From Thermodesulfobacteriaceae bacterium (GTDB taxonomy: Bacteria; Desulfobacterota; Thermodesulfobacteria; Thermodesulfobacteriales; Thermodesulfobacteriaceae), in contig JANXAD010000008.1 of the NCBI GenBank assembly GCA_025062245.1, forward strand, positions 1 through 55,786: 55,786 nt of DNA. The letters run 5' to 3'. The notes below the pieces were generated by a model. The model searched no databases, was not told where the DNA came from, and saw nothing but the letters and a program-made list of their open reading frames with translations. Shown here piece by piece: positions 11,139 through 50,106 of this stretch (position 1 is its first letter; each line of letters opens with the position of its first letter). The translations under genes were made by a program, and so were the position numbers.

Positions 11139-11196
11139 TAATTTAAGATATAGGCTTTATAGGTCAAATATCCTATTTGACCGAAGTTTAACTTCC

Positions 11197-11682
11197 TCAA
11201 CCTCCGCTACAGTTTCTCATTTCTGCCGAGAAAATTTCAAAGGGAGTTGCTGGACGATGGGAAAGAATTTCTATTTTTAATTTTACTCTTTTTCCTGCTC
11301 CAGGATGGTTAAAATCAACCTTAACCTTATCTCCACTAATTTCTAAGATTTTAAAGCGAAGTTTAGAACCATAGGGATTTAAAACTTCCTCGTGCCACTT
11401 TCCAGGTTTTAAGGTTTCTACTTCTTTGAAAAGGGAAAGCTCCATCTCTTTAACCAAGTAGGGTAGGTGAGGACCAAAGGCACTTTCAGGAGGAAGGACT
11501 ACCTCAACCCTATCCCCTGTTTTTTTTCCCTTAAGAACCCTTTCTACTTCCTCAGGAATAGAATCTCTTCCCAAAATAAATTCTGTTTCATGAACTTTTT
11601 CAAACCAGGGAGGTTCCTCTTCATTCTCTATTTCCATTTCATACCTAATTTTTACTTTGTAGTCAAAATCAATTAAATCCAT
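11197..11682 (-). CDS. SlyD-like FKBP-type peptidyl-prolyl cis-trans isomerase
   Basis: Cytoplasmic folding helper. About 161 residues from the ATG near 11682, preceded by a strong GGAGGAGG ribosome site. The FKBP core is visible (GRDSIPEEVERVLKGKKTGD; LPPESAFGPH), with the insert-in-flap region between. The segment VDFNHPGAGKRVKLKIEI is the SlyD hallmark. No His-rich metal tail follows. An in-frame TTG at 11751 would add 23 residues overlapping argF and lacks a ribosome site, so I reject it. It lies 45 bases after argF. Confidence 0.85.
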   Translation of the reverse strand: MDLIDFDYKVKIRYEMEIENEEEPPWFEKVHETEFILGRDSIPEEVERVLKGKKTGDRVEVVLPPESAFGPHLPYLVKEMELSLFKEVETLKPGKWHEEVLNPYGSKLRFKILEISGDKVKVDFNHPGAGKRVKLKIEILSHRPATPFEIFSAEMRNCSGG

Positions 11683-11725
11683 AGTTTTTCCTCCTCCTAA
11701 AATTTTTATTAGTTTACTTAATAAA

Positions 11726-12637: not shown

Positions 12638-12781
12638 AAAACTTCCTCCTACAAAGTCTTAGGATTTTAATTTTTTTCTATTTTTTAAAATTGTAAAGTC
12701 TATTTAAAAATTTCCAAAAAATTTTTAAAAAATTTTCTTTAGAAATTTTAAAATCATCCGATATTATATAAAAGAGAAATT

Positions 12782-13204
12782 ATGAAAGTAGATAACCCCT
12801 TAGGTTCAAAAATAAATATAGAAGAGTTAATTAAAGGTTATACCAAAGAATCCCAGAATCTTTCTCTAAGAAAGCTTAAATCTTTCACCAAAACTCAAGC
12901 TAAGATTTCCAATCTTTCTAAAAGAAATCCCCTTGAAAAAGATCTTTTCCAAGGGGAGATCTTAGATATAATAAAAGAAATTGACAGAAAGTTAAGCCTA
13001 TTAAATAAGGGATTAAAGATAGAAATAGATGAAGAGTTAAAGATTCCCGTTTTTAAGATTATAGATCTTGAAACTAAGGAAGTTTTAAGACAAATTCCCT
13101 GGGAAGAACTTTTAAAATTGAGAAAAATTTTGAAAAACTTAAGTGAAAAGGAGTTAAAAAATAGGGAATTTTTGAAAGGACTTTTCTTAGAGAAGGAGGT
13201 TTAA
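12782..13204 (+). CDS. flaG: FlaG-family flagellar protein
   Basis: First gene of a flagellar filament-cap operon. The 140-residue protein has a lysine-rich N-terminal half and a C-terminal FlaG domain whose hallmark is visible (PVFKIIDLETKEVLRQIPWEE). FlaG proteins influence filament length; the mechanism is unclear. The N-terminal half is longer than in typical FlaG and I do not recognise it. fliD begins 7 bases after its stop. Confidence 0.82.
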   Translation: MKVDNPLGSKINIEELIKGYTKESQNLSLRKLKSFTKTQAKISNLSKRNPLEKDLFQGEILDIIKEIDRKLSLLNKGLKIEIDEELKIPVFKIIDLETKEVLRQIPWEELLKLRKILKNLSEKELKNREFLKGLFLEKEV

Positions 13205-14917: not shown

Positions 14918-15172
14918 TTGAGTTTAAAGGAAAAACTTTGGAAAATTGAAATAGCTATAAAAGAGGAAAATTTTTCTCAAGCTTTAATTTTATATAAAGA
15001 AATAAGTGAAAATTGGAAAATTTATGAAAAATCTTTAAAACAAAATCCAGAAGATTTAGAAAAAATTTTCAAATTAATAACCTATATAGACAAACTTTTA
15101 GAAGAAAAGAAAAAACATTTAAAGGCTCAGGATAATCTTTTAAAGGTGAGAAAGAAATATACTCAATATTAG
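14918..15172 (+). CDS. Small helical protein in flagellar operon, possible FliT-like chaperone
   Basis: An 84-residue, Lys/Glu-rich, probably all-helical protein starting at TTG only 6 bases after fliS. Position after fliD-fliS is where FliT, the FliD export chaperone, is found in many bacteria, and the size fits. Sequence alone does not prove it. Its 3' end overlaps by 4 bases the convergent GGDEF gene. Confidence 0.55.
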   Translation: MSLKEKLWKIEIAIKEENFSQALILYKEISENWKIYEKSLKQNPEDLEKIFKLITYIDKLLEEKKKHLKAQDNLLKVRKKYTQY

Positions 15173-16116
15173 TTTCTTCGGTCTATAAAATAGTTACTTC
15201 CTGGCATTTGTTTAACATAGTTTTTGACTTCAGTAATTCTCACATTAATTTCTCCAATATGGTTAAATTTTCCTTTATAAACTGGAACTATGGCAATGGA
15301 AAGAGAGGGAAAGGGAAACTGTTGAAGATGACCCTTGCGGTTTTTACATAAAAAGTGTCCTCTTTCCCAGTCCTCTGATTCTATAAAATTAGGAAGGGTT
15401 AGATTAAATCTTTTAATAATTTCTTTAGAAATTTTTTCAGCCTTTTCTAAGGGGACGATAAAAACGAAGTCATCTCCACCGATGTGCCCTATAAAGTAGC
15501 TTTCCCTTTTTACTAATTCGTCTATAGTGCTTATTAAAATAAAACTTAAATTTTTGATAATTTCATCTCCTCTTGTAAAACCATAGTAATCGTTAAAGGC
15601 TTTAAAATTATCTAAGTCTACATAGGCTACAGCTAAGGGTTGTAAAGATTCCATAGCTAACTTAATAGCATTTTGAATAGAGGTGTTACCTGGAAGACCT
15701 GTTAAGGGATTATTATCAGAGATTCTTCGAATCCTGGCAAAGGCATATTTAATTCTTAAAAGAAGTTCTTCTGGAGTTTGAGAAATAGTAATAAAGTCAT
15801 CTACAATCTGGGTTTTATCTATTAAAATTTTAGAATTCACCTGGTCTACCACCAAAATTATAGGAAGTTTTACCAAATTAAACCTTACTTTAAGTTCCTT
15901 TAGGAGGAGGTCTAAACTTTTAGGATCCTTAGGATAATAATAAATTACCAGGTCTGGAGGTGTAAAAAGAAGGGATTCAAAAAAAAAGGAAATATTGTAA
16001 AAAACTTTCACTTTAAAAAATTTTTTAAGTTCTATAGTCCAAATTTTAAAAGGAATAGTTTTTCTTTTGAAAAAGGCAAAAATGGTTTTATCTTTTAATT
16101 TTTCATTATGGTACAT
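15169..16116 (-). CDS. GGDEF-domain protein, putative diguanylate cyclase
   Basis: Probable c-di-GMP synthase. Residues 1-130 look like a receiver-like fold without clear phosphorylation residues. The GGDEF domain begins at NPLTGLPGN and has the substrate-binding DLDNFKAFND segment. The active-site loop reads GHIGGDDF, with Asp in place of the usual fourth-position Glu. No RxxD inhibitory site precedes it, so product inhibition is unlikely. It ends in FIDRRN, like the CBS-GGDEF protein at 40.2 kb. It is the last gene of the trpC-hisI-hisG-HDOD unit. Confidence 0.85.
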   Translation of the reverse strand: MYHNEKLKDKTIFAFFKRKTIPFKIWTIELKKFFKVKVFYNISFFFESLLFTPPDLVIYYYPKDPKSLDLLLKELKVRFNLVKLPIILVVDQVNSKILIDKTQIVDDFITISQTPEELLLRIKYAFARIRRISDNNPLTGLPGNTSIQNAIKLAMESLQPLAVAYVDLDNFKAFNDYYGFTRGDEIIKNLSFILISTIDELVKRESYFIGHIGGDDFVFIVPLEKAEKISKEIIKRFNLTLPNFIESEDWERGHFLCKNRKGHLQQFPFPSLSIAIVPVYKGKFNHIGEINVRITEVKNYVKQMPGSNYFIDRRN

Positions 16117-37266: not shown

Positions 37267-39195
37267 GTGCCTAAAAAGGTCTTTCATGATTTAGTTAGTT
37301 TAAAAGACGCTTTACATCTTATAGAAAAGATTTTCCAAGAAAGAAGGTTTTTTTCTGAATTTTTTGAAAATATCCCTGTAAGAGAATCTTTAAATCGAAT
37401 TACTGCTGAACCTGTTTTTGCTAAGTGGTCCTCTCCTTACTTTCATTCCTCAGCTATGGATGGATATGCGGTTAAGGCTGAAGATACTTTCTTAGCTACA
37501 GAAAAATATCCTGTTAAGTTAAAACTTGGAGAACAAGCCCTCTGGATAGAAACAGGCGACCCCCTTCCTAATGGGTTCAATGCAGTAATTCCTGTAGAAG
37601 AAGTAAATATAAGAGAAAATTATATAGAAATCTATAAAGCTGTTCCTCCCTATCATCATGTTAGGGTGATAGGAGAAGATATTGTGACTACCGAACTTAT
37701 TATTCCTGAGGGACATGTTATAAGACCAGCAGATATTGGGGCTATGCTTGCCAGTGGAATTACAGAAGTTAAGGTTTTTAAAAAACCAATCCTTGGAGTT
37801 ATTCCTACAGGTTCAGAACTTGTTCCAGTAGAAACCTTAAAAGAGCGGGCTCTTAAACCCCCTGAACTTATAGAGTATAATTCGGCAGTCCTTAAAGGAC
37901 TAATTCAAGAAAATTTTTCCGAACCCAGGATTTACCCCATTTGTGAGGATAAGGAAGAAGCTTTAAAGGAAAGTTTAGTAAGAGCTTTAAAAGAATGTGA
38001 CATAGTTCTTATAAATGCAGGAGCAGGATATGGAAAGGAAGATCTAACTTATAAAGTTATTAGTGAATTAGGTGAGGTTTACATAAATGGAGTTGCTATA
38101 AAGCCAGCCAAACCCTTTATTTTCGGAGTAGTTGAAAATAAACCAGTCTTAGGAATTCCAGGCTATCCAGTTTCTACTTATTTTGCCTTTGAAGTTTTAG
38201 TAAAACCTCTCATCAATCTTTATTTAAGAAGAACTGAAGAAAAGAAAGTTCTTAAAGGCCTTCTTGCAAGACAACTTCCAAGCACTTTAGGAGTGGATGA
38301 ATTTGTAAGAGTAAAAGTTGGAAAGGTAAAAGATAGATATATTGTTTCTCCTGCAGGAAGAGGAGCAGGTCTTTTAATGTCAGTGGTAAGAGCAGATGGT
38401 TACCTTATAATTCCTGCAAATTCTGAAGGATATTCCCAAGGGAAGGAAGTAGAGGTTTTTCTTTGGAGAGACAAAAAAGAAATAGATAATACTATAGTTT
38501 GTATAGGAAGTCATGATAATACTTTGGACCTTATTTATAACTTTCTAAGAAAAAAATATCCTAATTATAGTTTTTCTTCTACCCATGTAGGTTCGATGGG
38601 TGGATTGGTAGCAGTAAAAAAGGGAGAAGCCCATTTAGCAGGAACTCATCTTTTAGATGAAAACACCGGAGAGTATAATGTTTCTTTTATTCAAAAAATT
38701 TTACCTGAAAAGAAGGTAGTTTTGATAAATTTAGTTTATCGCATTCAGGGACTTATAGTGAAAAAGGGAAATCCTAAAAAAATAAAGGGCTTTGAAGATT
38801 TAATAAGAGAAGATGTCACCTTTATTAATAGGCAAGCTGGTTCAGGAACAAGACTCCTTTTAGACAAACACTTAAAGGAACTAGGAATAGATCCTTCTCA
38901 AATTAAAGGATATGAAAAAGATGAATATACCCATATGGGAGTTGCCCAAGCTGTAGCCAGTGGAAGAGCAGAGGTGGGCCTTGGTATATACGCAGCTGCT
39001 AAGGCTTTAGACTTAGACTTTATTCCTGTAACTGAAGAAAGATACGACCTTCTTATACCTCAAGAATTTCTTGAGTTAGAAATGATTTTAGCTCTTTTGG
39101 AGGTGATTAAAAATTCTTCAGAGTTTAGAGAGGCTGTTTTGAAATTAGGTGGTTACGATATAAGAGATATGGGAAAAGTTATGTATGAAAATTAA
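37267..39195 (+). CDS. moeA: MoeA molybdopterin molybdotransferase fused to a binding-protein-like domain
   Basis: Inserts molybdate (or tungstate) into adenylated molybdopterin. The first ~400 residues are MoeA, with SSAMDGYAV near the N-terminus and the MoCF-domain loops PTGSELV, INAGAGYGKEDLTY and GIPGYPVS. Residues ~405-640 form a periplasmic-binding-protein-like domain (IGSHDNTLDLI.., NRQAGSGTRLLLD, SGRAEVGLGIYAAA) that probably binds oxyanion; it has no signal peptide and acts inside the cell. The start is GTG. It lies 13 bases after fdhB, so cofactor insertion is co-expressed with its client. Confidence 0.92.
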   Translation: MPKKVFHDLVSLKDALHLIEKIFQERRFFSEFFENIPVRESLNRITAEPVFAKWSSPYFHSSAMDGYAVKAEDTFLATEKYPVKLKLGEQALWIETGDPLPNGFNAVIPVEEVNIRENYIEIYKAVPPYHHVRVIGEDIVTTELIIPEGHVIRPADIGAMLASGITEVKVFKKPILGVIPTGSELVPVETLKERALKPPELIEYNSAVLKGLIQENFSEPRIYPICEDKEEALKESLVRALKECDIVLINAGAGYGKEDLTYKVISELGEVYINGVAIKPAKPFIFGVVENKPVLGIPGYPVSTYFAFEVLVKPLINLYLRRTEEKKVLKGLLARQLPSTLGVDEFVRVKVGKVKDRYIVSPAGRGAGLLMSVVRADGYLIIPANSEGYSQGKEVEVFLWRDKKEIDNTIVCIGSHDNTLDLIYNFLRKKYPNYSFSSTHVGSMGGLVAVKKGEAHLAGTHLLDENTGEYNVSFIQKILPEKKVVLINLVYRIQGLIVKKGNPKKIKGFEDLIREDVTFINRQAGSGTRLLLDKHLKELGIDPSQIKGYEKDEYTHMGVAQAVASGRAEVGLGIYAAAKALDLDFIPVTEERYDLLIPQEFLELEMILALLEVIKNSSEFREAVLKLGGYDIRDMGKVMYEN

Positions 39196-39623
39196 GAAGA
39201 ACCTCTAAAAAGTAAAAAGAGACCCAAAATTACCAGAATGGTTCCTAAAATTTTATAAAGAGTGAGAGGTTCTTTTAGTAAGACAACAGCAAGTAAGGTG
39301 CTGACTAAAGGATAAGAGGCTGTAAGGGGAACCACTAAAGAAGCTTCCTTAGCCTTTAGAAGAGAAAAATAACCTAACATTCCTAAGAACCCCCCTAAAA
39401 GGCCACTTCCACAAAGAATAAGAACTTCTCTAAGCTGAAGAGTTAGAATTTTTTCTCTTTCTAAGAGAAAAACCGTTATAGAAAGCCCAACTAAGGAAAA
39501 AAAGGTTCTAATGAAAAGTCCCATCAGAGGTGAAACAGTTTTTAATCCCACCTTTTCCATAATAGAACTTATTCCCCAGAAAGTTACAGTCATAAACCAG
39601 ATTAGGAAAACTTTTAAGTCCAT
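39192..39623 (-). CDS. Small EamA/DMT-type membrane protein
   Basis: A 143-residue protein of four or five hydrophobic helices, like a single EamA half (10-helix DMT carriers have two). The segment LTASYPLVSTLLAVVLLKEPLTLYKILGTILVILGL is typical of the EamA C-terminal motif. Such small proteins are thought to work as dimers. It overlaps moeA by 4 bases at the 3' ends and follows the HAD gene by one base. Substrate unknown. Confidence 0.78.
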   Translation of the reverse strand: MDLKVFLIWFMTVTFWGISSIMEKVGLKTVSPLMGLFIRTFFSLVGLSITVFLLEREKILTLQLREVLILCGSGLLGGFLGMLGYFSLLKAKEASLVVPLTASYPLVSTLLAVVLLKEPLTLYKILGTILVILGLFLLFRGSS

Positions 39624-39624
39624 T

Positions 39625-40095
39625 TTAGGCTCTCAAATCTGCAATAAGTCTTTTAGGGTTAAGTAAAAGGTCTATGGCATCAATGGGGGACTTTACCACG
39701 ATATCTGCATTTAGAAGGGTTTCCACAGCGCAACCCTCTTCTAATAAGACAGCTATTCCAATTTTAGCAACCTTAAGAAGCCTTCGGTCATTTCTTCCAT
39801 TTCCAAAGGCTACTACCTTTTCTGCTCCCAGTTTTTTAACAAATTCTTCCTTTTGAACATCTTCATTTCCGGGAGATAAAATAATCACTTCTGCCTTTAC
39901 TCCTTCTAAGGCAGTTTTAGCTTTTCCAAAGGTATCGGCTGTAAGAATATAAATTTTTAACTTTTCAGCTAACTCATTTAGTTTTTCCTTAACTCCAGGA
40001 ATAAGATTTCCATCTACCGATAGAGTTCCAGTAAAGTCTGAAACTAAATAATTTAGTATTATTTTTTCCTTTCCAGGAATTTCTACCTCTATCAT
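39625..40095 (-). CDS. HAD-family phosphatase-like protein (P-type ATPase-like motif)
   Basis: A 156-residue soluble HAD protein. Motif I is DFTGTLS, of the P-type ATPase kind (DKTGTL) rather than DxDGT. Motif II/III residues follow, and GNGRNDRRLL is the metal-binding motif IV. It resembles small soluble P-type-ATPase-like phosphatases; the substrate is unknown. The ATG at 40095 follows a GGGAGGT site; the TTG at 40107 lies within that site. Confidence 0.8.
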   Translation of the reverse strand: MIEVEIPGKEKIILNYLVSDFTGTLSVDGNLIPGVKEKLNELAEKLKIYILTADTFGKAKTALEGVKAEVIILSPGNEDVQKEEFVKKLGAEKVVAFGNGRNDRRLLKVAKIGIAVLLEEGCAVETLLNADIVVKSPIDAIDLLLNPKRLIADLRA

Positions 40096-40173
40096 TTTAC
40101 CTCCCAAGAGTGAATTAGGATTTGTCTTTTTAAATTGTAAAATTATAAAATATAAAAATCAAAAGACAAGTAT

Positions 40174-41196
40174 TTAGGCTCTTCTTCTATCTCTAAAATA
40201 GAAGGACTGACCTGATTCTTTGGAAACCTTTTTAGTATAAGCTTTGACTTCGGAGGCTTTGGAAGAGAGTTCTCCGAAGGAAGAAAAATTACAAGAAGAT
40301 AGGATAGCACAACTTATAGAAAGAAGGGGAATTTGCTTTTTTATGCCTCTCCTATCTAAACTTTCATAATACCCTCTTTTTAAATCTTCTGAATGATAAA
40401 AAAGAGGAAGTTTTTCTTTGAATTTTTCAATAAGAAACTCACAAAAACCCTCTGCCTGCCTATGCTCTATCACAACTACGAAATCATCTCCCCCTATATG
40501 GCCTATAAATACCTTAGAAAAATTTTTAGATACCTCTTTAAGCAACTCTCCTAAGGTTGTAATCACCAGATCTCCCATAGCAAAGCCATAAGTATCATTA
40601 TAGGGTTTAAAATCATTTAAATCGATATAAATAACATCAAAGGTTTCCCTATTGTTAAGTCTCCTCTCTATCTCCCTTCTTAGGGCCCAATTTCCTGGAA
40701 GACCTGTCAGAGGATTTGAATTTTGAGCTAAATAAAGAGTTTTTTGACTAAGAAAATAAAGTAAATTTTTTACTGAAACAAGTCCCTTATATTCCTCTTT
40801 TTCCACTACCACAATTTCTTGTTCTATGTATTTATCATCTCTTAAAGATAATCTTTTACCTGCTTCTTCCAAAGAGAGAGAACTTTCTAAAACTAAAATA
40901 TCCCTATTCATTAAATCCTTAGCTTTTTTTCTATAATTTAAAGATATTCCGTATCCAAATCTTCCTAAAACAATTTTTTCAAAAAACTCCTGTCTCGGAA
41001 TTAAACCTATAGGTCGAAAGTATTCGTCTACTATAGGTAAGCTACGAACATCTTCCTTTTTCATAAAATAATAAAATATTTCCATTAAAGACACCTCAGG
41101 ACTTAAAGGTTCTACAAAGGTAGTTATTTTTCCTATTTCTCCTTCTAAACAAATTTCTTCAGAACAGAAAACATTTAAAAGTTGAGAGGCATTCAT
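40174..41196 (-). CDS. CBS-GGDEF protein, putative diguanylate cyclase
   Basis: A 340-residue protein with an N-terminal CBS pair (about 1-150; SLPIVDEYFRPIGLI is a CBS piece) joined to a GGDEF domain (from NPLTGLPGN). The active loop is GHIGGDDF, as in the GGDEF protein at 15.2 kb, and no RxxD inhibitory site precedes it. CBS pairs sense adenine nucleotides, so activity may follow energy state. It is the last gene of the pst-signalling unit and lies 13 bases after cheR. Confidence 0.87.
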   Translation of the reverse strand: MNASQLLNVFCSEEICLEGEIGKITTFVEPLSPEVSLMEIFYYFMKKEDVRSLPIVDEYFRPIGLIPRQEFFEKIVLGRFGYGISLNYRKKAKDLMNRDILVLESSLSLEEAGKRLSLRDDKYIEQEIVVVEKEEYKGLVSVKNLLYFLSQKTLYLAQNSNPLTGLPGNWALRREIERRLNNRETFDVIYIDLNDFKPYNDTYGFAMGDLVITTLGELLKEVSKNFSKVFIGHIGGDDFVVVIEHRQAEGFCEFLIEKFKEKLPLFYHSEDLKRGYYESLDRRGIKKQIPLLSISCAILSSCNFSSFGELSSKASEVKAYTKKVSKESGQSFYFRDRRRA

Positions 41197-41209
41197 AGGT
41201 ATACCTCCC

Positions 41210-42055
41210 TTACTTCTTAAAAAATAAAGTAACTTTATCTATAATCTTTTTTTCCATATCAGGAAAACTCTTAGGTGCCAACTCAGTTGCGCCTAAAATT
41301 AAACATCCTCCTGAGTTAAGAGAATTCCAAAGTGTTTCCCAAATTTTCTCCTTAATAGAGTCTGAAAAATAAATCAGAACATATCTACAAAAAATTAGAT
41401 CAAATTTTTCAAAAACTTTCTTTTCAGCCTCTATCAAATTTAAAAAATCAAATTTTACTAAAGCCTTAACTTCTTCTCTTATTTCCCACTCAGAATTTTT
41501 ACTTTTAAAATATTTAAACAGAAAGTGAACAGGAACACCTCTTCCTATTTCACTGTTACTGTAAAGTCCTTTTTTAGCCTTCTCTAAATTGCTAAAAGAG
41601 ATATCTGTAGCCCAAATTTTAAGATCATAGTTAAATAACTGAAAACTAAAATATTCCAGTAAAATCATAGCTATACTGTAGGGTTCCTGTCCTGTAGAAC
41701 AACCAGCAGACCATATAGAAATCTTTCTGTCTTTTCTTTTTTCCCAAAAAAGTTTAGGCAATAAATACTTTCTTAAAACCTCAAAAGGATGGAAATCTCT
41801 AAAAAACTGAGTTTCATTAATAACCAGTCTATCTACAATTTCCCTTAAAAGGTGGGAATTAACTTTTCCAGTTTCAAAATCATCTCTAATTTTTAGATAA
41901 AACTTTTCTAAACTTTCATAACCAAAGGATTGGGCAATTTTATAAAGTTCCCCTTTTATGAGATAAATCTTTTCTAAACTATAAGAAATACCACAGATCT
42001 TTTCAATTAAAGTAGCAAAAAAAGTAAAAATTTTTTCATTTAAAGTTAATTGCAT
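41210..42055 (-). CDS. cheR: CheR chemoreceptor glutamate methyltransferase
   Basis: Methylates glutamates of chemoreceptors from S-adenosylmethionine to set adaptation. The 281 residues contain the N-terminal helical domain, INETQFFRD and the SAM motif WSAGCSTGQEPYSIAM, then FCRYVLIYFS. It follows the chemoreceptor gene by 18 bases. No CheA, CheW, CheB or CheY is in the window. Confidence 0.95.
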   Translation of the reverse strand: MQLTLNEKIFTFFATLIEKICGISYSLEKIYLIKGELYKIAQSFGYESLEKFYLKIRDDFETGKVNSHLLREIVDRLVINETQFFRDFHPFEVLRKYLLPKLFWEKRKDRKISIWSAGCSTGQEPYSIAMILLEYFSFQLFNYDLKIWATDISFSNLEKAKKGLYSNSEIGRGVPVHFLFKYFKSKNSEWEIREEVKALVKFDFLNLIEAEKKVFEKFDLIFCRYVLIYFSDSIKEKIWETLWNSLNSGGCLILGATELAPKSFPDMEKKIIDKVTLFFKK

Positions 42056-42073
42056 TTAAAATTAAATTCAAAG

Positions 42074-43564
42074 TTAAAGCCTTTTAACTATATCTTTAAG
42101 TTCCTTCCCAACTTTAGACTCCTCTTCAACTACTAAAACTATTTTATTTATACCTTCTTCAAAGTCCGAAATAGAGTTAGCAACTTCTAATATCTCTTTA
42201 GTAACAGAATCTACTGCTACATTCATCTCCTCTACCGAAGTGGTTATACTATTAACCATATCTTGCAAATTTTCTACGCGTTTAATAATATGCTCAAAAT
42301 TCCTTATGGTTCCTTCAGTATGCTTGATATTGTTTTCTATTTTATAATAATTGTCCTTTACTTCTTCTTTAACCATTTCTACGGCTTTTTTAATTTCATT
42401 TACTATGGCTCCTATTTCTTCTACAGAAATACCTGCCTTTTCAGCTAATCTTCTTATTTCACCAGCTACTACTGTGAAAGACTTCCCCTGTTCTCCAGCC
42501 CTTGCAGCCTCAATAGTAGCATTAATAGCTAGAAGATTAGTGTTTTCAGCTATGCCTTTTATAAGTTCAGTAATTCTTTCTATAGTCTTGGTCTTTTCTT
42601 CTAATTTTATAGTCTCTTCCTCTAACTTCTTAAAGGAACTGTTTATACTCTCTATCTCTCTTAAAATGATACCTATGCTTTCTTCTCCACTTTTAGCAAC
42701 TTTTACTAAATTTTTATTCTCTTCAAAAATACTAAATATGTTTTTAGAAACATCACTTGCTACTGTTGCCATCTCCTTTGCTGCACTGGCAATCTGATTA
42801 GTCCTTTCAATTTGAGCCTGAAGAAGGGACTTAAAACGATTAACCAAGATAGATAAATTATCACTATAATTAATTAAAGACTCAGAAATTTGTAAGGTAT
42901 TTTTAGTAAGATTTTTTGAAGAAAGGAAAACTAAAAAAACTATCCCTACCCCAAAGATAAAAAGTATTAATCCTAAGACTATCAATGTAATAAAAATTTT
43001 ACCTATTATATTAAAAGCTTCGTGCGCCCTCTTATCTACTGCTTCTATATAGAAGTTGACTAATTCGTCTAAGGTCTTTAACATGGTAGCCAGTTTAGGA
43101 GAAATTTCGTTTTCATAAACAAAAATTCCTTCCCTATCCTTTCCTTCTAAAAGAAATTGAAGGGCTTTGTTGTTGCTTTCTCTTAAGGAGGAAATAGTGT
43201 TTACAGTTGCTTCAAGTTTGGCTTTTCCTTCCACACTTAAAGTGGTTTCTTTCAAAAACTCAAGAGCCTTTCCATAAACTTCCCGGGCTTTTAAAATTTC
43301 TTCATAAAGCTTTTTTCTCTCCTCTAAGTTATTATGTAAAAACATTCTCAAAATGTTTAATTGAATATATCCCAAGATAGTCTTTTTTACCGTAGCTCCC
43401 TTTTCTATTTGTTCAACCTTTTCGTGTAAATCTTTGACAATTTTATTTATCTGGTAAAGGGATATAAAAGCATAAAAAACGATTAACATTATAAATAAAG
43501 TAAGTATAGTAAAAGAAAAATAAATTTTTTTAGTAAGTTTCCAATTTTTAAATCTATTAAACAT
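42074..43564 (-). CDS. Methyl-accepting chemotaxis protein with four-helix-bundle sensor
   Basis: A 496-residue transmembrane chemoreceptor. Membrane helix 1 is at about 12-35. A periplasmic helical domain of the 4HB_MCP type (about 40-185, many Leu/Glu/Lys) follows. Membrane helix 2 is at about 188-214. The cytoplasmic signalling hairpin has the conserved tip IAENTNLLAINATIEAARAG. There is no C-terminal CheR-docking pentapeptide. Its place between an EAL gene and cheR, behind pstB, suggests it reports on phosphate or a related nutrient; this is inference. Confidence 0.93.
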   Translation of the reverse strand: MFNRFKNWKLTKKIYFSFTILTLFIMLIVFYAFISLYQINKIVKDLHEKVEQIEKGATVKKTILGYIQLNILRMFLHNNLEERKKLYEEILKAREVYGKALEFLKETTLSVEGKAKLEATVNTISSLRESNNKALQFLLEGKDREGIFVYENEISPKLATMLKTLDELVNFYIEAVDKRAHEAFNIIGKIFITLIVLGLILFIFGVGIVFLVFLSSKNLTKNTLQISESLINYSDNLSILVNRFKSLLQAQIERTNQIASAAKEMATVASDVSKNIFSIFEENKNLVKVAKSGEESIGIILREIESINSSFKKLEEETIKLEEKTKTIERITELIKGIAENTNLLAINATIEAARAGEQGKSFTVVAGEIRRLAEKAGISVEEIGAIVNEIKKAVEMVKEEVKDNYYKIENNIKHTEGTIRNFEHIIKRVENLQDMVNSITTSVEEMNVAVDSVTKEILEVANSISDFEEGINKIVLVVEEESKVGKELKDIVKRL

Positions 43565-43579
43565 ATGGCTTCCGTATTT

Positions 43580-44383
43580 TTAAACAAAAGAGGGTTTAGG
43601 TTTACCCAAATAATATCCTTGTAAGTAATCCACTTTTAGATTTTTTAAAGAAAGAAGTTGTTTTTTATTTTCTATTCCTTCTGCAATTACTTTAACTTCT
43701 AAGTCTTTACAAAGTTCCAAGGTTTGAGTGATAAACTTTATTGAAAAGTTATCTTCAGGGAGCCTTTGAACGAAAAATTTATCAATCTTTAAGAAATTGG
43801 GACTAATTTCCAAAAGAAAGCGAGAGGAAATACAACCTGATCCGTAATCATCTATACTAATTTTATAACCCTGCTCTTTAAAGTGAAATACCGTTTTAAT
43901 ATAACCTTCTATATTCATAGGTTGCTCAAATTCTGTAATCTCAAAAACTATATTTTCAGAAGAGAGACCTAAAAGAGATAGAAATTGAAAGGTTAATCCC
44001 TTAGGATAGTTCTTTCTCTCTAAAACCTTAGGATGGATGTTTAAAAATAATAGAGTGTCCTTAGGAAACCCTACTTTATAAGCTTTATATATAGCCATTA
44101 ATCTGCAATAGAGATCAAATTCTGAAATAAATCCCCTGTCAACACTTTCTTTGATTAATTGCAATATGCTCTTATTAGTTCTTGGCTTGCTAAAGGCTTC
44201 ATAACCTAATACCTTAAAGGTTTTAGAACAAAAAATAGGTTGAAAATAGGTATCTATTTCTAAAAATTCTTTTTTAAGTTTATAGGAAAATTTTTTAATA
44301 AAGTTTTCTATAAAAATTTCTGTTTTTGGTTCTATTACTAAGCCTAACTTTTCCATTTTTGCTTCTAAACAGAATATTTTCAA
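43580..44383 (-). CDS. EAL-domain cyclic-di-GMP phosphodiesterase
   Basis: A single EAL domain of 267 residues. The nominal EAL triplet is EAF (GYEAFSK), which keeps the metal-binding Glu. The other catalytic pieces are intact: LNIHPKVL (Asn), EITE, DDYGSG, LKIDK, AEGIEN and QGYYLGKP, so activity is likely. The start is TTG, 8 bases after the pstB stop; an ATG nine codons in (44356) is an alternative. No sensor domain is fused, so its input must come from partners. Confidence 0.87.
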   Translation of the reverse strand: MKIFCLEAKMEKLGLVIEPKTEIFIENFIKKFSYKLKKEFLEIDTYFQPIFCSKTFKVLGYEAFSKPRTNKSILQLIKESVDRGFISEFDLYCRLMAIYKAYKVGFPKDTLLFLNIHPKVLERKNYPKGLTFQFLSLLGLSSENIVFEITEFEQPMNIEGYIKTVFHFKEQGYKISIDDYGSGCISSRFLLEISPNFLKIDKFFVQRLPEDNFSIKFITQTLELCKDLEVKVIAEGIENKKQLLSLKNLKVDYLQGYYLGKPKPSFV

Positions 44384-44391
44384 TAAGCAAC

Positions 44392-45159
44392 CTATCCAAA
44401 TTTTCCGCTGATATAATCTTCGGTTAGTTTATTTTCAGGATAAGTAAAAATTTTTTCAGTAGAACCAAACTCAATTAGTTCACCTAAATACATAAAGGCT
44501 GTGTAATCTGATATTCGAGCAGCTTGTTGCATGTTATGAGTTACAATGACTATAGTCATTTTTTCTTTAAGTTTTACGATGAGATCTTCAATCTTAGCGG
44601 TAGAAATAGGATCAAGAGCTGAAGTAGGTTCGTCAAAAAGTAAAACCTCTGGTTCTACGGCAATAGCCCGAGCTATACAAAGCCTTTGTTGTTGCCCTCC
44701 TGAAAGAGAATAAGCATTTTCTTTAAGGCGATCTTTAACTTCATCCCATAAAGCTGCATCCCTTAAAGCCTTTTCTACTCGTTCTTCTAAAACCTTTTTA
44801 TTAGTAATTCCTTTTATTTTTAAACCGTAAGCCACATTTTCAAAAACAGATTTAGGAAAGGGATTAGGCTTTTGAAAAACCATTCCGATGCGCATCCGAA
44901 TATAAAGGGGCTCAGCTCCGTTAGTTGCTATGTTTAATTCCTCCGGATAAAGAAGGATTCTTCCTTCGTAGCGGTTTCCCGGATAAAGATCATGCATGCG
45001 GTTAAAACAACGCAAAAGGGTACTTTTTCCACATCCAGAAGGACCTATAATAGCTGTAACTTTATTCTTAAATATAGGAAAGCTTATTTCCTTTAGAGCT
45101 TTAAAATTTCCGTAATAAAAATTAAGTTTTTCTACTTTAATTTTTATTTCACTTTTCAT
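44392..45159 (-). CDS. pstB: Phosphate ABC transporter ATP-binding protein PstB
   Basis: ATPase of the high-affinity phosphate importer. The 255-residue length is standard. Walker [10 protein letters not shown], signature [14 protein letters not shown], Walker [13 protein letters not shown] and the H-loop [13 protein letters not shown] are intact. It is followed by the EAL gene after 8 bases where many genomes have phoU; no phoU is in the window. Confidence 0.97.
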
Positions 45160-45166
45160 TTAAATT

Positions 45167-46048
45167 TTACCACTGATACTTTTTTCTCATTTTATATCTG
45201 AGGTAATAGCTAACGGAGTTTAAGATTAAACAAAGGACTAAGAGGACAAAACCTGCGGCAGCTGCATTTTTATGAAAGGCTTCTTGAGGCCTTGAAACCC
45301 AGTTAAAAATTTGAATAGGAAGAAAGGTAAAGGGACTTTTAAGCATCCCAATAAAGTCTTCCCAAGGAGGAGGAGGTAAAAAGGCAATAAAGGTTAAAGC
45401 TCCAATAGTAAGAAGAGGTGCCGTTTCTCCAATAGCCCTAGAGGTAGCAATAATTACTCCCGTAAGAATACCACCTATAGAGTAGGGGAGTAAATGATGA
45501 AAAACTAACTCGTAATTAGTGGCTCCCAGAGCATAAGCGCCCTCTCTAATAGCTCTGGGAATTCTTCTTAGGGATTCCCGAGTGGTTACTACTATTACAG
45601 GAAGCATAAGAAGTCCCAAGGTTAAACCCGCAGTAAGGATACTTTCTCCAAATTTAAAACGATAAACAAAAATTCCAAGGGCTAAGAGCCCATAAACGAT
45701 AGAAGGAACTGCAGAAAGATTAGTAATGTTAGCCTCTATAATTCGAGCTAATCTTCCCTTACCACCAAATTCTTCTAAATAAATTCCAGCAGGAACTCCT
45801 AAGAAAATAGACCAAAAAATGGCCCCAATCATTACATAGATAGTATCAACCCAAGCTGAAAGAATCCCTGCTTCCTGAGGAAACCTTGAAGGATAGGAGG
45901 TGTAAAACTTAAGATCAAAAATTCTATGTAATCCATCTAAGAATAATTTAAGAATAATAGAAAAGAGAAAGGTGAGGACAAAAAGAAGACACAAAACTCC
46001 TACAATCTCAAAAAGTTTCTCTTTAAATCTTACCTTATTTTCTTTCAT
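45167..46048 (-). CDS. pstA: Phosphate ABC transporter permease PstA
   Basis: Six-helix membrane subunit forming the phosphate channel with PstC. The 293 residues contain the ABC-permease loop EGAYALGATNYELVFHHLLPYSIGG and the ATSRAIGETAPLLTIG segment. The N-terminal helix is at about 14-36. It lies 2 bases after pstC and 7 before pstB. Confidence 0.95.
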   Translation of the reverse strand: MKENKVRFKEKLFEIVGVLCLLFVLTFLFSIILKLFLDGLHRIFDLKFYTSYPSRFPQEAGILSAWVDTIYVMIGAIFWSIFLGVPAGIYLEEFGGKGRLARIIEANITNLSAVPSIVYGLLALGIFVYRFKFGESILTAGLTLGLLMLPVIVVTTRESLRRIPRAIREGAYALGATNYELVFHHLLPYSIGGILTGVIIATSRAIGETAPLLTIGALTFIAFLPPPPWEDFIGMLKSPFTFLPIQIFNWVSRPQEAFHKNAAAAGFVLLVLCLILNSVSYYLRYKMRKKYQW

Positions 46049-46050
46049 TT

Positions 46051-46968
46051 TTAGTATCTCTCAACCTTAGATTTTACGTAAATAGCCATAAGATTAAAAA
46101 AGAGGGATAATAAAAAAAGTAAAAATCCTGCCGCAAAAATAGAAAGATACTCAAAGGAGAGAAAGGGTAGATCTCCCAAAGCTACTTGAACTATATAACC
46201 TGTAATGGTTTGAACAGGTTCAAGAGGATTAAGAGTAAGATTGGGATACATTCCAGCAGCTACAGCAACTACCATAGTTTCACCTACAGCTCTTGAGGCT
46301 CCAAGTAAATAGGCTGCAATAATTCCAGATTTAGCAGCAGGTATTACTACTCCAAAGGCTGTTTTAAGCTTGGAAGCTCCAAGACTATAAGAAGCCTCTC
46401 TTAAGTAATGTGGAACCCCTCTCAAAGAATCTTCAACTAAGGAAGCAGTAAAGGGAAGAATCATAACTCCTAATACAATACCAGGAGAGAGGGCATTCAT
46501 ACCCTGAACTTCAATATCAAATTTTCTAAAAAACCACTGCAAAAGAGGAGTTACTCCTAAGAGAGCAAAATAGCCATAAACCACAGTGGGAATAGCCTCT
46601 AAGAAGTCTAACCAGGGTTTAACCGCTTCTTTAACTCGATGGGAAGCAAACTCACTAAGATAAACTGCAATAAGGAGTCCTAAGGGAACTGAAATACACA
46701 TAGCAATACCTGCAATAAGAAAGGTTCCACAAAGAAGGGGTAAAATACCAATTTTTTTAGTTACAAAGGTGGGAGTCCACTCTTTTTCGGTAAAAAATCT
46801 AATAAGGGAGGAGGGGAAACCTCCACCCTCAGGATGATTAAAAAATCTTATGGTATCTTCTAATAGAGCTATTACTATTCCAATGGTAACTAAAATTGAA
46901 GTAAAGGCAGTAAGAACTAAAAAACCTTTGAAAATTAAATCTAATTTTTTCTTAGTTTCAATTCTCAT
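46051..46968 (-). CDS. pstC: Phosphate ABC transporter permease PstC
   Basis: Membrane partner of PstA, 305 residues, with an N-terminal helix at about 13-34, a large loop and then five helices. The coupling motif REASYSLGASKLKTAFGVVIPAAKSG and the family segment GASRAVGETMVVAVAAG are visible. It lies 6 bases after pstS. Confidence 0.95.
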   Translation of the reverse strand: MRIETKKKLDLIFKGFLVLTAFTSILVTIGIVIALLEDTIRFFNHPEGGGFPSSLIRFFTEKEWTPTFVTKKIGILPLLCGTFLIAGIAMCISVPLGLLIAVYLSEFASHRVKEAVKPWLDFLEAIPTVVYGYFALLGVTPLLQWFFRKFDIEVQGMNALSPGIVLGVMILPFTASLVEDSLRGVPHYLREASYSLGASKLKTAFGVVIPAAKSGIIAAYLLGASRAVGETMVVAVAAGMYPNLTLNPLEPVQTITGYIVQVALGDLPFLSFEYLSIFAAGFLLFLLSLFFNLMAIYVKSKVERY

Positions 46969-46974
46969 TCTATA

Positions 46975-47985
46975 TTATTCTTTAGCCTCCTTTTTAAGAA
47001 GTTCTTCTATAGTTAAACCTACCTCAGGTTCTCCGCCAAAGACTGTTCCGATTACCCTTTTTTCAAAACGTTTTTTTACTATGTCATAAGCCTTATCAGG
47101 AAGAGGTATGTAACCTACTTGTTTAGAAATTTTTCCTGCGTTTTTAATATAAAATTCTACGAATTCTTTAACCTCTGGTTTTTCAAGAGATTTTACATTG
47201 ATATAAATAAAAAGAGGTCTTGAAAGGGGTTGATATTCTCCAGATTTTACAGTTTCCAAAGAGGGAGTTACACATTTTCCAGTTTTGGGATTTTTAATTT
47301 CTGCAGCTTTTATTTTTCCTTTATTTTCTTCCACATAAGCCAATCCAAAGTAGCAAAGAGCTCCCTTTTCTCTTTGAGCAAATTGAACAAGCACATTATC
47401 ATCTTCAGAAGCTAAGTAATCTCCTCTTTGAGATTTAGCCTTACCCATAATTGCCTCGGTAAAATAATCAAAGGTTCCAGAATCAGAACCAGGTCCACAA
47501 AGTCTTACTTCTTCCTTAGGCCATTTAGGATCCAGATCGGCCCAAGTAAACTTTTTTCCCTGAGATTCGGGTTTCCAAACCTCTTTCAATTGCTCTACCG
47601 TCATGCACTTAGCCCATGTATTTTTAGGATTTATAACCACAGCAAGCCCATCATAGGCTATAGGAAGTTCTAAGTATCTAATATTATTTTGTTTACAATC
47701 TTCCATCTCTTTTTTAAGGATAGGCCTTGAAGCATCATTAATATCCGTTTCTCCTCTGCAAAACTTTTTAAAACCTCCACCAGTTCCTGAAATACCCACG
47801 GTAACCTTAACTTCTCCCTTTTTAGCTTTTTGAAACTCCTCAGCCACACCTTCCGAAATAGGATAAACCGTTGAAGAACCATCAATTTTAATAATTTTTG
47901 AGGCCTCACCCTTAGCAACTAATCCTAAAATACTAAAACCTACTAAAAAACTACCTAAAAACTTTTGGATTCCCTTTTTCTTCAT
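46975..47985 (-). CDS. pstS: Phosphate-binding periplasmic protein PstS
   Basis: Periplasmic phosphate receptor. The 336 residues begin with a signal peptide (KKK, hydrophobic 9-25, cleavage near residue 28 before [17 protein letters not shown]). Phosphate-binding loops GISGTGGGF and [10 protein letters not shown] are intact. No lipobox Cys, so it is soluble. A good GGAGGT site precedes it, and four tandem 11-bp repeats lie 44 bases upstream, so phosphate starvation control is likely. Confidence 0.96.
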
Positions 47986-48029
47986 ACTATACCTCCGCTA
48001 TGATTGGTTTTGATTTAAATAATAAGAGA

Positions 48030-48073
48030 GGAATCTTAAAAGGAGTTTAAAGAAAGTTTAAATTTATGTTAAA
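48030..48073 (-). promoter_or_regulatory. Four tandem 11-bp repeats upstream of pstS, Pho-box-like
   Basis: On the minus strand four contiguous 11-mers read TTTAACATAAA, TTTAAACTTTC, TTTAAACTCCT and TTTAAGATTCC, each starting TTTAA. PhoB/PhoP binding sites are direct repeats with 11-bp period, and TTAACA is the Gram-positive PhoP box core. AT-rich TTATTA, usable as a -10, follows about 5 bases downstream (48021-48026 on the plus strand). The regulator itself is not in the window. Confidence 0.7.
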
Positions 48074-48092
48074 ACTTTCTGAGTGTTTTTCT

Positions 48093-48503
48093 CTAAGTTC
48101 TAAGGAGTTCTTTCAATTTTTCTAAAATTTTTTCAGCTTTATGAAGGGCCCTTTGAGCATCTTCTTCATCGTAGACCTCTGAGGGAATAGCATCATCAGG
48201 AAGCACATCAGGATATCTGGTGGGAATATAATACTTATCAAGGGATTTAGCAAGGGGTAAAAGTTCCTTTAATTGGAGATAAAAGTTTGAGGCGATCTGT
48301 AAAAGGGAACCAACAGAGTGGCCCCATACTTCTTCACATCCACAGGCAAATAGTATAGCTTTAACAGCTTTTTCAGCGGCTTGTTGAGCTAAAAAACAAC
48401 AAAGATTAAAACTACCCCATTGAAAAGCCTTCCTAGCATCCTCCAGATCATATTCTGCTTGCTTAAGCCATTTATTAGCTATTTCTTGAAGGTTTCCTTT
48501 CAT
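48093..48503 (-). CDS. HEPN-domain protein
   Basis: A 136-residue all-helical protein. WLKQAEYDLEDARKAFQWGSFNLCCFLAQQAAEKAVKAIL is split over two helices typical of the PF05168 HEPN fold, and GHSVGSLLQIA follows. The RNase motif RX4-6H of HepT-type toxins is not evident. It overlaps the nucleotidyltransferase gene by 29 bases. Together they form an MNT/HEPN pair, often a toxin-antitoxin or abortive-infection module. The 3' end lies 20 bases from the pst repeats. Confidence 0.85.
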   Translation of the reverse strand: MKGNLQEIANKWLKQAEYDLEDARKAFQWGSFNLCCFLAQQAAEKAVKAILFACGCEEVWGHSVGSLLQIASNFYLQLKELLPLAKSLDKYYIPTRYPDVLPDDAIPSEVYDEEDAQRALHKAEKILEKLKELLRT

Positions 48504-48873
48504 AAATAATTATTCCTTCTTGAAGAGCCCTTTTGATAAAGGGATTAGAAATTTTCATTTTTTCTATTTCTTCCGGGGTGTAAACCAGAATATCAACAGG
48601 GATATCGGGATCTAAAATACTGTAAGCCATCTCTAAGCGATCTAAAAAATGAGAAGGTATTTCCTCTTTAATAATTATTAGGTCAAGATCACTTCCTTTA
48701 TGTAATTCCTCTCTCACTAAAGAACCAAAAAGAATAACTTTTAAGGGATCATAAAGGGGAAATTTTTTTTGGAGCTTTTTAAGCCCCTCAATCAAATATT
48801 CCCTTCTCTTTTTAGAAAGACCAAACCTTACCTTCATAGAAGGTAATTTTACCCAAATCTTAGGAAAGTTCAA
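48475..48873 (-). CDS. MNT-type nucleotidyltransferase
   Basis: A minimal nucleotidyltransferase of about 120-132 residues, with the catalytic GS..SDLDLIII motif (LFGSLVREELHKGSDLDL). It partners the overlapping HEPN protein; in characterised pairs the MNT protein adds nucleotides to the HEPN partner and neutralises it. The start is ambiguous: TTG at 48873 or ATG at 48837, neither with a clear ribosome site. Confidence 0.85.
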   Translation of the reverse strand: MNFPKIWVKLPSMKVRFGLSKKRREYLIEGLKKLQKKFPLYDPLKVILFGSLVREELHKGSDLDLIIIKEEIPSHFLDRLEMAYSILDPDIPVDILVYTPEEIEKMKISNPFIKRALQEGIIIYERKPSRNS

Positions 48874-48909
48874 GTTTAATTTTACATAATATATCTTATC
48901 GGAAGTAAT

Positions 48910-50106
48910 TTAAATTTCTCTCAAAATAACCTCCTTAAAAAGACTTCGGAGCATATTTAAAGTTTCAGCCTGAAGATTACAGGTTCTATTTACCACACAA
49001 GATATGCTTTTATACCTTCTCTTTCTATATAGGTCTCCGTCGTTTCCTACCTGAATACAAAATCTCTCTACTTCTTCATCAGAAGCTTTTATAATTTCCA
49101 CGGAATTAAAATCAAAGGGATGCCAAAATTTGAAGTAGTTTACATACCATACTCCCTTTTTAACTAAGTCCCTTTCTACCATCTCTTGATCAAGAACTGC
49201 CACAACTTCTTTAGGCCACTCTATGTATTCTCTACTCTGAAAACACTGCCTGCAACCATAAAAGGTTATAATTTCTCTACTTTCTGGAATTTTAATTTTA
49301 TGTCTCCCAAAGTAAACTATACACTTAGGACACACTAATTTTTCAAAGTTTTGACTAAAACTTTTGGTAGTTTCGTAACTGATATTTTTTAAAAGATGTA
49401 ATAATATTGACTTTAAGTGAGGATTAAATAATTCTTTCTTTAAATGTTTAACCGTTTCTCCTCCCAGGTTTAATAGGGTTTGACAGGCTATAAACCGTTT
49501 TTTCCAATCCTCACTTTCTAAATAGGAAAGAAGTTTTTCAACTGAGGAAAACCCTTTTTGGATTTCTTCAAGGGAAGTCAAAATTTCTTTAACCTCTCTG
49601 TTAGCGAAGTAAGAAAGTGCCTTTTTAACTTCTGACAGAGGAGGGCGACTCTTCCACCAAAAAAATAAGTATCTTTTCTCAAAGATGTATTCTTTTCCTT
49701 GATCTATGTTATAAAAAGCTGTTATTATGGCAAAAAGACCTCCTACAAACATGAAGGTTAACCAGACTATAAGGCCTACAACTGTTCCCATTCCTAAACC
49801 AATAAAAACTGGAGTTGGAGAGTTAATGGCTAATCCTATCATCAAGCCTCCAAAAAATCCTAAAAGTAATCCTCCCACTCCAAAAGTTAATCCCAGAAAA
49901 AACCCTGGAGATAGTCCTAAGGATAGGCTACCTAAAAACCGTTTTTGCTCTTTATGGGAAACAAAAAGGGTTAAGAAGGAAATCAAATTTTTCCACTGCC
50001 AAGTTTTAAAGTTTATTAACCAAAAAAGAAAACCACTTAAAGCTCCTATAAGCATACCCTTTTCTATAAAAGGAACTAAGGCTTCCCAGACTATATAGGA
50101 AATCAC
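48910..50106 (-). CDS. Membrane protein with helical-repeat region and cysteine motif, function unknown
   Basis: Unrecognised protein, 398 residues from a GTG at 50106. Three or four Gly-rich membrane helices (about 15-32, 60-95, 97-130) are followed by a helical stretch (160-240, HEAT-like). Then comes CPKC..CRQC (zinc-ribbon spacing) and a C-terminal domain with VERFCIQVGNDGDLYRKRRY. The GTG has no ribosome site and the same frame stays open 74 codons further upstream, so this is probably the truncated reading of a longer, frameshifted gene. Confidence 0.6.
   Translation of the reverse strand: MISYIVWEALVPFIEKGMLIGALSGFLFWLINFKTWQWKNLISFLTLFVSHKEQKRFLGSLSLGLSPGFFLGLTFGVGGLLLGFFGGLMIGLAINSPTPVFIGLGMGTVVGLIVWLTFMFVGGLFAIITAFYNIDQGKEYIFEKRYLFFWWKSRPPLSEVKKALSYFANREVKEILTSLEEIQKGFSSVEKLLSYLESEDWKKRFIACQTLLNLGGETVKHLKKELFNPHLKSILLHLLKNISYETTKSFSQNFEKLVCPKCIVYFGRHKIKIPESREIITFYGCRQCFQSREYIEWPKEVVAVLDQEMVERDLVKKGVWYVNYFKFWHPFDFNSVEIIKASDEEVERFCIQVGNDGDLYRKRRYKSISCVVNRTCNLQAETLNMLRSLFKEVILREI

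Follow-up and report, generated by a model that had tools for sequence, protein, structure and literature searches.

Introduction

In a few proteobacteria, experiments have shown that phosphate starvation controls cyclic diguanosine monophosphate (c-di-GMP). In Vibrio cholerae, acgAB is a two-gene EAL/GGDEF pair that is not known to be associated with the pst operon or with a chemoreceptor; a review places these c-di-GMP metabolic genes under PhoB. Here, we analyze contig JANXAD010000008.1 (C88; 55,786 nucleotides, hereafter the window) of Thermodesulfobacteriaceae bacterium assembly GCA_025062245.1 (1.63 Mb in 89 contigs, 93% complete), in which the genes of a phosphate (pst) transporter run on into genes for an EAL-domain protein, a methyl-accepting chemotaxis protein (MCP; gene mcp), the chemoreceptor methyltransferase CheR, and a CBS-GGDEF protein. 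With moderate confidence, we read this run as a PhoB-controlled pst operon with a signaling tail.

The closest described relatives are Pseudomonas proteins. The phosphodiesterase RapA of P. fluorescens Pf0-1 is reported to be controlled by the Pho regulon and to deplete c-di-GMP when phosphate runs short (PMC12900916, PMC3032545), and PA3258, its P. aeruginosa homologue, has an EAL-CBS-GGDEF architecture and combined phosphodiesterase behavior with residual cyclase activity (PMC12900916). Relative to RapA and PA3258, the window enzyme is split into two genes 2.4 kb apart, sits inside the pst run, and has mcp and cheR between its halves. The sulfate reducer Desulfovibrio vulgaris offers a second likeness, as the part of its regulon study available to us reports PhoB binding at targets that include HD/EAL genes; its Pho box, however, consists of (c/t)GT(n)AC repeats, unlike those of the window, and that part mentions no pst-EAL-mcp-cheR operon (PMC3333781). 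Pho control of c-di-GMP is already known in kind, and the window is a variant of it.

Parts of the chemotaxis tail also have counterparts in P. aeruginosa. Phosphate is reported to bind the 4-helix receptor CtpH directly, whereas CtpL responds to PstS loaded with phosphate (PMC4926252), and c-di-GMP acts via MapZ on CheR1, also for CtpH (PMC6370697). The 4HB sensor of the window receptor resembles the 4-helix sensor of CtpH, and any coupling to PstS would be that of CtpL; the window receptor differs from both in lacking HAMP and in lying within the pst run with its own cheR. Counterparts of several CtpH, CtpL, and MapZ-CheR1 parts are brought together in a single run in the window.

A pst locus continued by c-di-GMP and chemotaxis genes

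The run occupies the minus strand from 47985 to 40174 in the order pstS-pstC-pstA-pstB-EAL-mcp-cheR-CBS/GGDEF, and all eight open reading frames (ORFs) are intact. Pfam domains in gene order are PBP_like_2, BPD_transp_1 (twice), ABC_tran, EAL, 4HB_MCP_1 with MCPsignal, CheR, and CBS (two stretches) with GGDEF. Successive gaps measure 6, 2, 7, 8, 15, 18, and 13 bases, the 8 bases between pstB and the EAL gene depending on an assumed TTG start of the latter. Order, strand, location, and spacing thereby confirm what an earlier reading, made without database searches (the sequence-only reading), had described. The first four genes, in this order and with a phosphate-type PstS, constitute a Pst importer; the best solved relative of PstS is the phosphate-binding protein 4jwo (E 3e-86). 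The locus departs from the canonical Pst-PhoU form in that phoU does not follow pstB in the window. The sequence-only reading had recorded this absence correctly, but phoU is present on contig C28 of the same genome, which rules out its loss: the gene has moved. PhoBR-like genes are located on contig C41.

Among 30 family genomes (designated by G numbers, that of the window being G000; loci carry L numbers), a pstS of the window type is present in nine, and CBS-containing homologues of the window GGDEF protein occur in 11. Four members of another genus (G001-G004) share the order pstS-C-A-B-phoU-EAL-CBS/GGDEF-phoB-phoR, with overlapping EAL and CBS-GGDEF genes and, in G001, one extra small ORF; Pfam confirmed phoU, phoB, and phoR in L035. 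In a phylogenetic tree, the window CBS-GGDEF protein clusters with the four pst-linked genes of these genomes (support 100/99). Because the pair is pst-linked in G001-G004 and the window CBS-GGDEF groups with those copies, the window is best read, on gene order and phylogeny, as a rearranged version of a pst-EAL-CBS/GGDEF locus, with phoU on C28, phoBR on C41, and the two c-di-GMP genes separated by mcp and cheR. In relatives from the family, G001-G004 included, a phoU gene follows pstB (L033-L036, L056, L057) and the pair consists of overlapping or adjacent genes. From sequence comparison, what is new in the window is the placement of mcp and cheR between the two c-di-GMP halves.

The remaining genomes show the parts in other combinations. 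The pair occurs away from pst in G006; in four genomes of the same genus (G009, G012, G015, G021), it is ordered CBS-GGDEF then EAL, and no pstS of the window type was found; and in G029, it lies on a 4.7-kb contig with no pst there. The pst contigs of G018 and G005 stop within pstB or shortly after it, and G018, the closest genome by PstS, yielded no CBS-containing homologue of the window GGDEF protein. The search for this gene order in relatives proposed by the sequence-only reading recovered pst-EAL-CBS/GGDEF in four genomes and none with mcp-cheR. Likewise, its statement that no such arrangement has been described stands for the exact eight-gene order, which has no second case among the 30 family genomes searched, and is too strong in concept, given the Pho-regulated RapA and the PhoB-bound HD/EAL genes of D. 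vulgaris. We found no report of a pst-EAL-mcp operon in the open-access literature, subscription papers being mostly outside that search.

A Pho-box-like array before pstS and before the unlinked pair

Array sites were aligned by eye in the pstS upstream regions of eight family genomes (the window and seven others) of the nine with this pstS. All eight regions share a 41-bp array of TTTAA-like units with an 11-bp period; in the window genome, the exact three-unit pattern lies at G000:C88:48047-48073. A repeat statistic for the window array exceeded all 300 shuffles, and its p value was at most 0.003 in the window, G004, G003, and G006 and 0.017 in G001. Direct repeats of the Pho-box type, with an 11-bp period, precede the operon in the window, and the array supports a candidate Pho box at this position.

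A similar signal appears before c-di-GMP genes that are not linked to pst. A matrix built from the eight pstS sites only was scanned over 1.02 Mb of family loci (both strands counted). Leave-one-out scores for the pstS sites were 24.2-39.2 bits (window site, 24.2), and the top match outside pstS regions, at 23.8 bits, lies 42 bp upstream of the G006 EAL gene, which is not linked to pst. A looser pattern of three TTTAA units, defined after the scan had revealed such repeats before the pair in Thermodesulfobacterium, was found upstream of 9 of 478 genes, all drawn from family loci that had been selected around genes of the pst, che, and GGDEF kinds: five are pstS and four head operons with the unlinked pair (G006, G009, G015, G021). 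By this pattern, the array precedes the pair in four of the five testable genomes with the pair away from pst; G012 is one base short of it, and in G002, G018, and G019 the region before pstS lacks an exact triple. Because the loose triple postdates the matrix scan, the G006 match is the only c-di-GMP match that tests a model built without it, and G009 and G021 are not independent, as they are identical over the 150 bp compared. A stricter pattern, searched in the 30 whole genomes, matched 26 times in nine of them, at 17 distinct places; the reversed control gave 4. Phosphate-related places comprise pstS (5), the G006 EAL gene (1), and the stretch that separates phoBR from a PstS-like gene in G010, G016, and G020 (3). 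The others lie before the gene of a 484-aa protein in G000 that has a porin match below the cut-off (1), in a gene cluster for small, uncharacterized proteins of G000, G003, and G004 (4), and at three sites with no evident phosphate link (G013 twice, G020). The pair is thus likely a member of the Pho regulon, a prediction best illustrated by G006 and weaker in the four same-genus genomes.

Several results weigh against Pho control of this kind. The repeat statistic is non-significant for the pstS regions of G002, G018, and G019 (p 0.13-0.16), and upstream of the window genome's own phoB it gives no sign of an array (p 0.87). The next matrix match outside pstS regions, at 19.0 bits, has no phosphate link, and scores before the pair's operon in G009, G021, G012, and G015 (12-16 bits) fall below it; the stricter pattern has no match in these four whole genomes. 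Furthermore, G019 and G006 carry pstSCAB-phoU-phoBR with no adjacent EAL/CBS-GGDEF pair.

Two groups of genes associated with the array deserve separate mention. The small-protein cluster (L212 1-1772, L206 1-1739, and L207 1244-3027, in G000, G003, and G004) has the array in its upstream part and may be an undescribed Pho-regulated cluster; the two of its proteins that were scanned had no Pfam match. In Thermodesulfobacterium genomes, the gene of an uncharacterized protein of 187-188 aa comes first in the CBS-GGDEF/EAL operon that follows the array (Table 1).

Table 1. Features of the pst locus in the window, with the array-associated protein gene of Thermodesulfobacterium.
Feature	Position	Strand	Basis and remarks
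Pho-box-like array	48034..48074	-	About 4 TTTAA-like units, 11-bp period; 5' edge 89 bp before pstS start
pstS, periplasmic phosphate-binding protein	46975..47985	-	Pfam; solved relative 4jwo; 84% identity to G018 copy
pstC, permease	46051..46968	-	BPD_transp_1; 79-92% identity, eight relatives compared
pstA, permease	45167..46048	-	Pfam; 86-89% identity, eight relatives compared
pstB, ATPase	44392..45159	-	Pfam; 76-85% identity, eight relatives compared, one partial
EAL-domain protein, probable c-di-GMP phosphodiesterase	43580..44383	-	Corresponds to N-terminal half of EAL-CBS-GGDEF proteins
Chemoreceptor, 4HB sensor and MCP signaling domain, without HAMP	42074..43564	-	Pfam, alignment
Second cheR, chemoreceptor methyltransferase	41210..42055	-	Pfam; 60% identity to the genome's own C66 cheR
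CBS-GGDEF protein	40174..41196	-	Corresponds to C-terminal half of EAL-CBS-GGDEF proteins; Pfam, alignment
187-188-aa protein gene	L038 13140-13706; L039 13292-13858; L041 13118-13681		L039 copy: no Pfam match

Transcription of the run

Small gaps were considered as proof of an operon and rejected. Across five loci of this genome, 64 of 91 same-strand neighbor pairs lie within 20 bp (median 7), and the gaps alone are therefore no operon argument. This ordinary spacing leaves room for an alternative in which transcription ends or resets after pstB and EAL-mcp-cheR-GGDEF forms a separate, constitutive cluster that is merely downstream; sigma-70-like matches inside genes (33 found, 26.1 expected) point the same way. 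The sequence-only reading had seen no terminator, and this holds insofar as terminator-like sites show no excess over shuffled sequence (8 vs an expected 7.7). That result argues against the separate cluster, as do the pst-EAL-CBS/GGDEF linkage in four other genomes and the Pho-box-like array that precedes the pair in genomes in which it lies apart from pst, and we consider such a cluster very unlikely. A PhoB-controlled run of all eight genes remains our preferred reading. The earlier proposal that uptake, c-di-GMP turnover, and chemotactic adaptation are produced together is, on the array, the family linkage, and the array before the unlinked pair, well supported for the first two as a prediction; for the chemotaxis genes, a phosphate role is what we infer.

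The split EAL and CBS-GGDEF pair

The two c-di-GMP proteins of the window together correspond to a fused protein type. In the fused protein of L179, residues 32-255 align with the EAL protein and residues 282-604 with the CBS-GGDEF protein, and the halves align in the same order to the fused proteins of L180, L100, L138, and L130, the last a Pseudomonas homologue that we do not equate with PA3258. The EAL, CBS, and GGDEF domains are therefore collinear with those of RapA-type family members, with two genes in place of a single polypeptide. Fused EAL-CBS-GGDEF proteins occur across the phylum and beyond.

By alignment, the window EAL protein retains E62, N115, E148, D178, D179, K199, E235, E238, and Q255, which we take to be metal-binding or catalytic sites. 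The claim that the EAL catalytic residues are intact is thus sound for these positions and fails for the signature, which reads EAFSK rather than ExLxR, with lysine in place of arginine. The GGDEF motif of the partner reads GGDDF. These deviations could indicate that both proteins are non-catalytic sensors of c-di-GMP or nucleotides that regulate a partner protein, and the EALs of G004, G003, and G002 (L033, L035, L036), in which the catalytic-base glutamate is replaced by K, point in that direction. This replacement also counts against our interpretation: the pair is not always an active phosphodiesterase, and some pst-linked EALs are probably inactive enzymes. The window EAL, however, keeps all of the listed positions apart from the signature arginine, GGDDF is invariant across the nine family members aligned, and PA3258, which shares the architecture, showed phosphodiesterase behavior together with residual cyclase activity (PMC12900916). 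A purely sensory role of the window pair is unlikely, and we retain the view that it is a split RapA-type enzyme.

Phosphate linkage of EAL-CBS-GGDEF genes beyond the family

Genes of this architecture recur near phosphate transporters in the wider phylum. Some match was obtained in 159 of 395 genomes, and 46 genomes outside the family had a CBS-containing match among the matches listed (open frames of 462-1170 aa, the EAL part being checked only in those with DNA retrieved). Among these listed matches, the gene lies within 10 kb of pstB in 7 of the 46 genomes (0.34 expected) and within 15 kb in 11 (0.50 expected). The 0.34 assumes random placement and counts genomes rather than lineages; the seven cases fall in 6 of 20 families.

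A second sample comprised 94 loci, namely 78 of the best 80 of at least 572 relatives (L099 and L106, from the window's own family, were dropped) and 16 that were picked from the phylum-wide matches described above; L102 and L185 are the same DNA. EAL is in the same ORF in 88 loci, the exceptions being L134, L139, L145, L166, L193, and L194, and a rule-based search placed a pst operon in 10 of the 94. An E. coli-type PhoB box (at least 11 of 14 positions) occurs upstream of 23 of 91 focal genes, three loci with less than 200 bp upstream having been dropped, vs 14 of 1206 neighboring genes. When both sides are restricted to genes with at least 80 bp of intergenic space, the counts are 17 of 61 focal genes and 9 of 578 neighbors (three of the nine being pstS); shuffled focal regions give 0.4%. 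All 23 positives carry EAL in the ORF (23/86). They bear 13 taxon labels and include nine from Pseudomonas and three from Pseudoalteromonas; as 22 of them are Proteobacteria, the box test says little about other phyla.

Together, the proximity to pstB and the excess of PhoB boxes indicate that the EAL-CBS-GGDEF family is, at the level of genome sequence, Pho-linked well beyond Pseudomonas, by the box in Proteobacteria and by gene order also in Thermodesulfobacteriota and Bacillota. The gene recurs beside pst in Thermodesulfobacteriota, some Bacillota, and some Proteobacteria, and behind PhoB-box-like sites mostly in Proteobacteria, the Thermodesulfobacteriaceae having a box of their own. This distribution suggests that the phosphate link is old and widespread, and many uncharacterized EAL-CBS-GGDEF proteins gain a testable function.

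Two further loci contain unusual neighbors. In L180 (8473-13122), the fused gene lies about 110 bp before phnC/D/E-like transporter genes, named by eye and from weak pstB similarity, which suggests a phosphonate linkage beside the phosphate one. In L181, a chemoreceptor gene is followed by an EAL-CBS-GGDEF gene and then, after 27 bp, by a gene (10780-12984) for a protein with Ser/Thr kinase, PstS-like, and OmpA domains.

The inserted chemoreceptor and methyltransferase

The window receptor combines a 4HB sensor with an MCP signaling domain, and Pfam found no HAMP match; the 45 residues that hold HAMP in two aligned relatives are absent. Standard transmembrane chemoreceptors have HAMP between membrane and signaling domain. 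The hairpin tip of the window receptor is conserved; in known receptors, this part makes contact with CheA and CheW. Three MCPs of the genome (93% complete) score above the cut-off, the window receptor among them, and a search for CheW domains recovered one CheA/CheW cluster, on contig C66. Receptors of the genus encoded beside cheA-cheW are at best 43% identical to the window receptor over 493 columns. The SAM-binding (S-adenosylmethionine) stretch of the window cheR, SAGCSTGQEPYSIA, is intact.

A rather unlikely alternative accepts the Pho-controlled c-di-GMP pair and regards mcp-cheR as a recent, unrelated arrival, related to the core chemotaxis genes and riding the operon. It would account for the absence of close copies of either gene in the other 29 family genomes, where the best identities are 44% for mcp (partial length) and 58% for cheR (best matches 46-58%), and for the fact that the window cheR is closest, at 60%, to the genome's own C66 cheR. 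No match was obtained at the cut-offs used in 15 of the 30 genomes for mcp and 4 for cheR, and we see no orthologue of either gene in these incomplete genomes. Both genes are on long branches (1.52 for mcp and 0.89 for cheR, vs medians of 0.17 and 0.14), and the trees do not place the window copies firmly. With the long branches and no close copy in 29 genomes, the role of mcp and cheR could be drifting or unrelated to phosphate, and signaling may be atypical because the receptor lacks HAMP; both considerations tell against our interpretation of the tail. Against an unrelated arrival, however, the ORFs are intact, the receptor tip and SAM-binding stretch are conserved, and receptors adjoining EAL-CBS-GGDEF genes recur near pst in other phyla. 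In Heliobacterium mobile (L138), a receptor gene is followed after a 7-base gap by EAL-CBS-GGDEF and pstSCAB-phoU, and in a gammaproteobacterium metagenome-assembled genome (MAG; L172), a receptor adjoins EAL-CBS-GGDEF near pst. The receptor of the EAL-CBS-GGDEF/pst locus L121 is non-adjacent, and in L181, an MCP adjoins EAL-CBS-GGDEF with pstB about 13 kb away. Overall, an MCP is the direct neighbor in 8 of the 94 loci, compared with 23 MCPs among 1264 surrounding genes (the eight being included in the 23, and one, L192, being an overlapping ORF that is possibly misread), a modest excess.

The base composition of the tail was considered as a sign of horizontal transfer and gives it no support: G+C is 28% in the EAL gene and cheR, 30% in mcp, and 32% in the GGDEF gene, and the C66 cheR and phoBR are also at 30%. 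An assembly chimera formed through repeats was also considered; it receives no support from the interval 39,000-49,000, where no repeat, direct or inverted, exceeded 34 nt and none at the mcp or cheR junctions hints at a join.

Proposed mechanism and significance

Comparison of the sequences supports the gene order, the Pho-box-like array, the pst/Pho linkage of the pair, and its relation to EAL-CBS-GGDEF proteins. In the PhoB-controlled operon that we propose, low phosphate would activate PhoR/PhoB (contig C41), and PhoB would bind the TTTAA-repeat array before pstS and drive the entire eight-gene run. The Pst importer would be made along with the split RapA-type pair, whose EAL part would lower c-di-GMP and favor swimming and detachment and whose CBS-GGDEF part may tune or oppose the EAL part, with adenine nucleotides as a possible cue. 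The 4HB chemoreceptor inserted into the run would, together with its own CheR, feed the single CheA/CheW pathway found in the genome, the receptor probably sensing phosphate directly or via phosphate-loaded PstS, and starved cells would thereby swim toward phosphate. Here we infer a single transcript, PhoB binding, enzyme activities, a receptor ligand, and a behavior with its direction; the predicted phosphate-taxis branch is plausible.

If this reading is true, a phosphate-starved cell could import phosphate and swim simultaneously. The surprising points are the recurrent Pho linkage of the EAL-CBS-GGDEF family, the split pair within a pst operon, and the insertion of a receptor and methyltransferase, whose presence inside the same operon makes phosphate taxis in thermophiles directly testable. 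A bolder version, which we offer tentatively and regard as doubtful, is a self-contained phosphate-foraging operon composed of the importer, a PstS-coupled receptor that has a methyltransferase to itself, and a split RapA-type c-di-GMP enzyme, with the enzyme's product adjusting the methyltransferase. Were this so, one phosphate-controlled message would set uptake, direction, and the swim-or-stick state, and the association of a receptor, EAL-CBS-GGDEF, and pst in Heliobacterium and the gammaproteobacterium MAG would point to a general foraging module that has come together independently on several occasions.

Neighboring genes in the window

Between pstS and the gene of a 398-aa protein lies a pair encoding HEPN and nucleotidyltransferase (MNT) proteins (48093-48873), which is absent at the corresponding junction of the close relative G018 (L055). 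The 398-aa protein (48910-50106) belongs to no Pfam family and is 69% identical to the product of the gene upstream of the G018 pstS. On the other side of the run, 37267-39195 encodes MoeA fused to a PBP-like substrate-binding domain. Finally, the window contains a second GGDEF-domain gene (15172-15732), of a GGDEF-only kind for which partial matches are listed in nearly all 30 family genomes.

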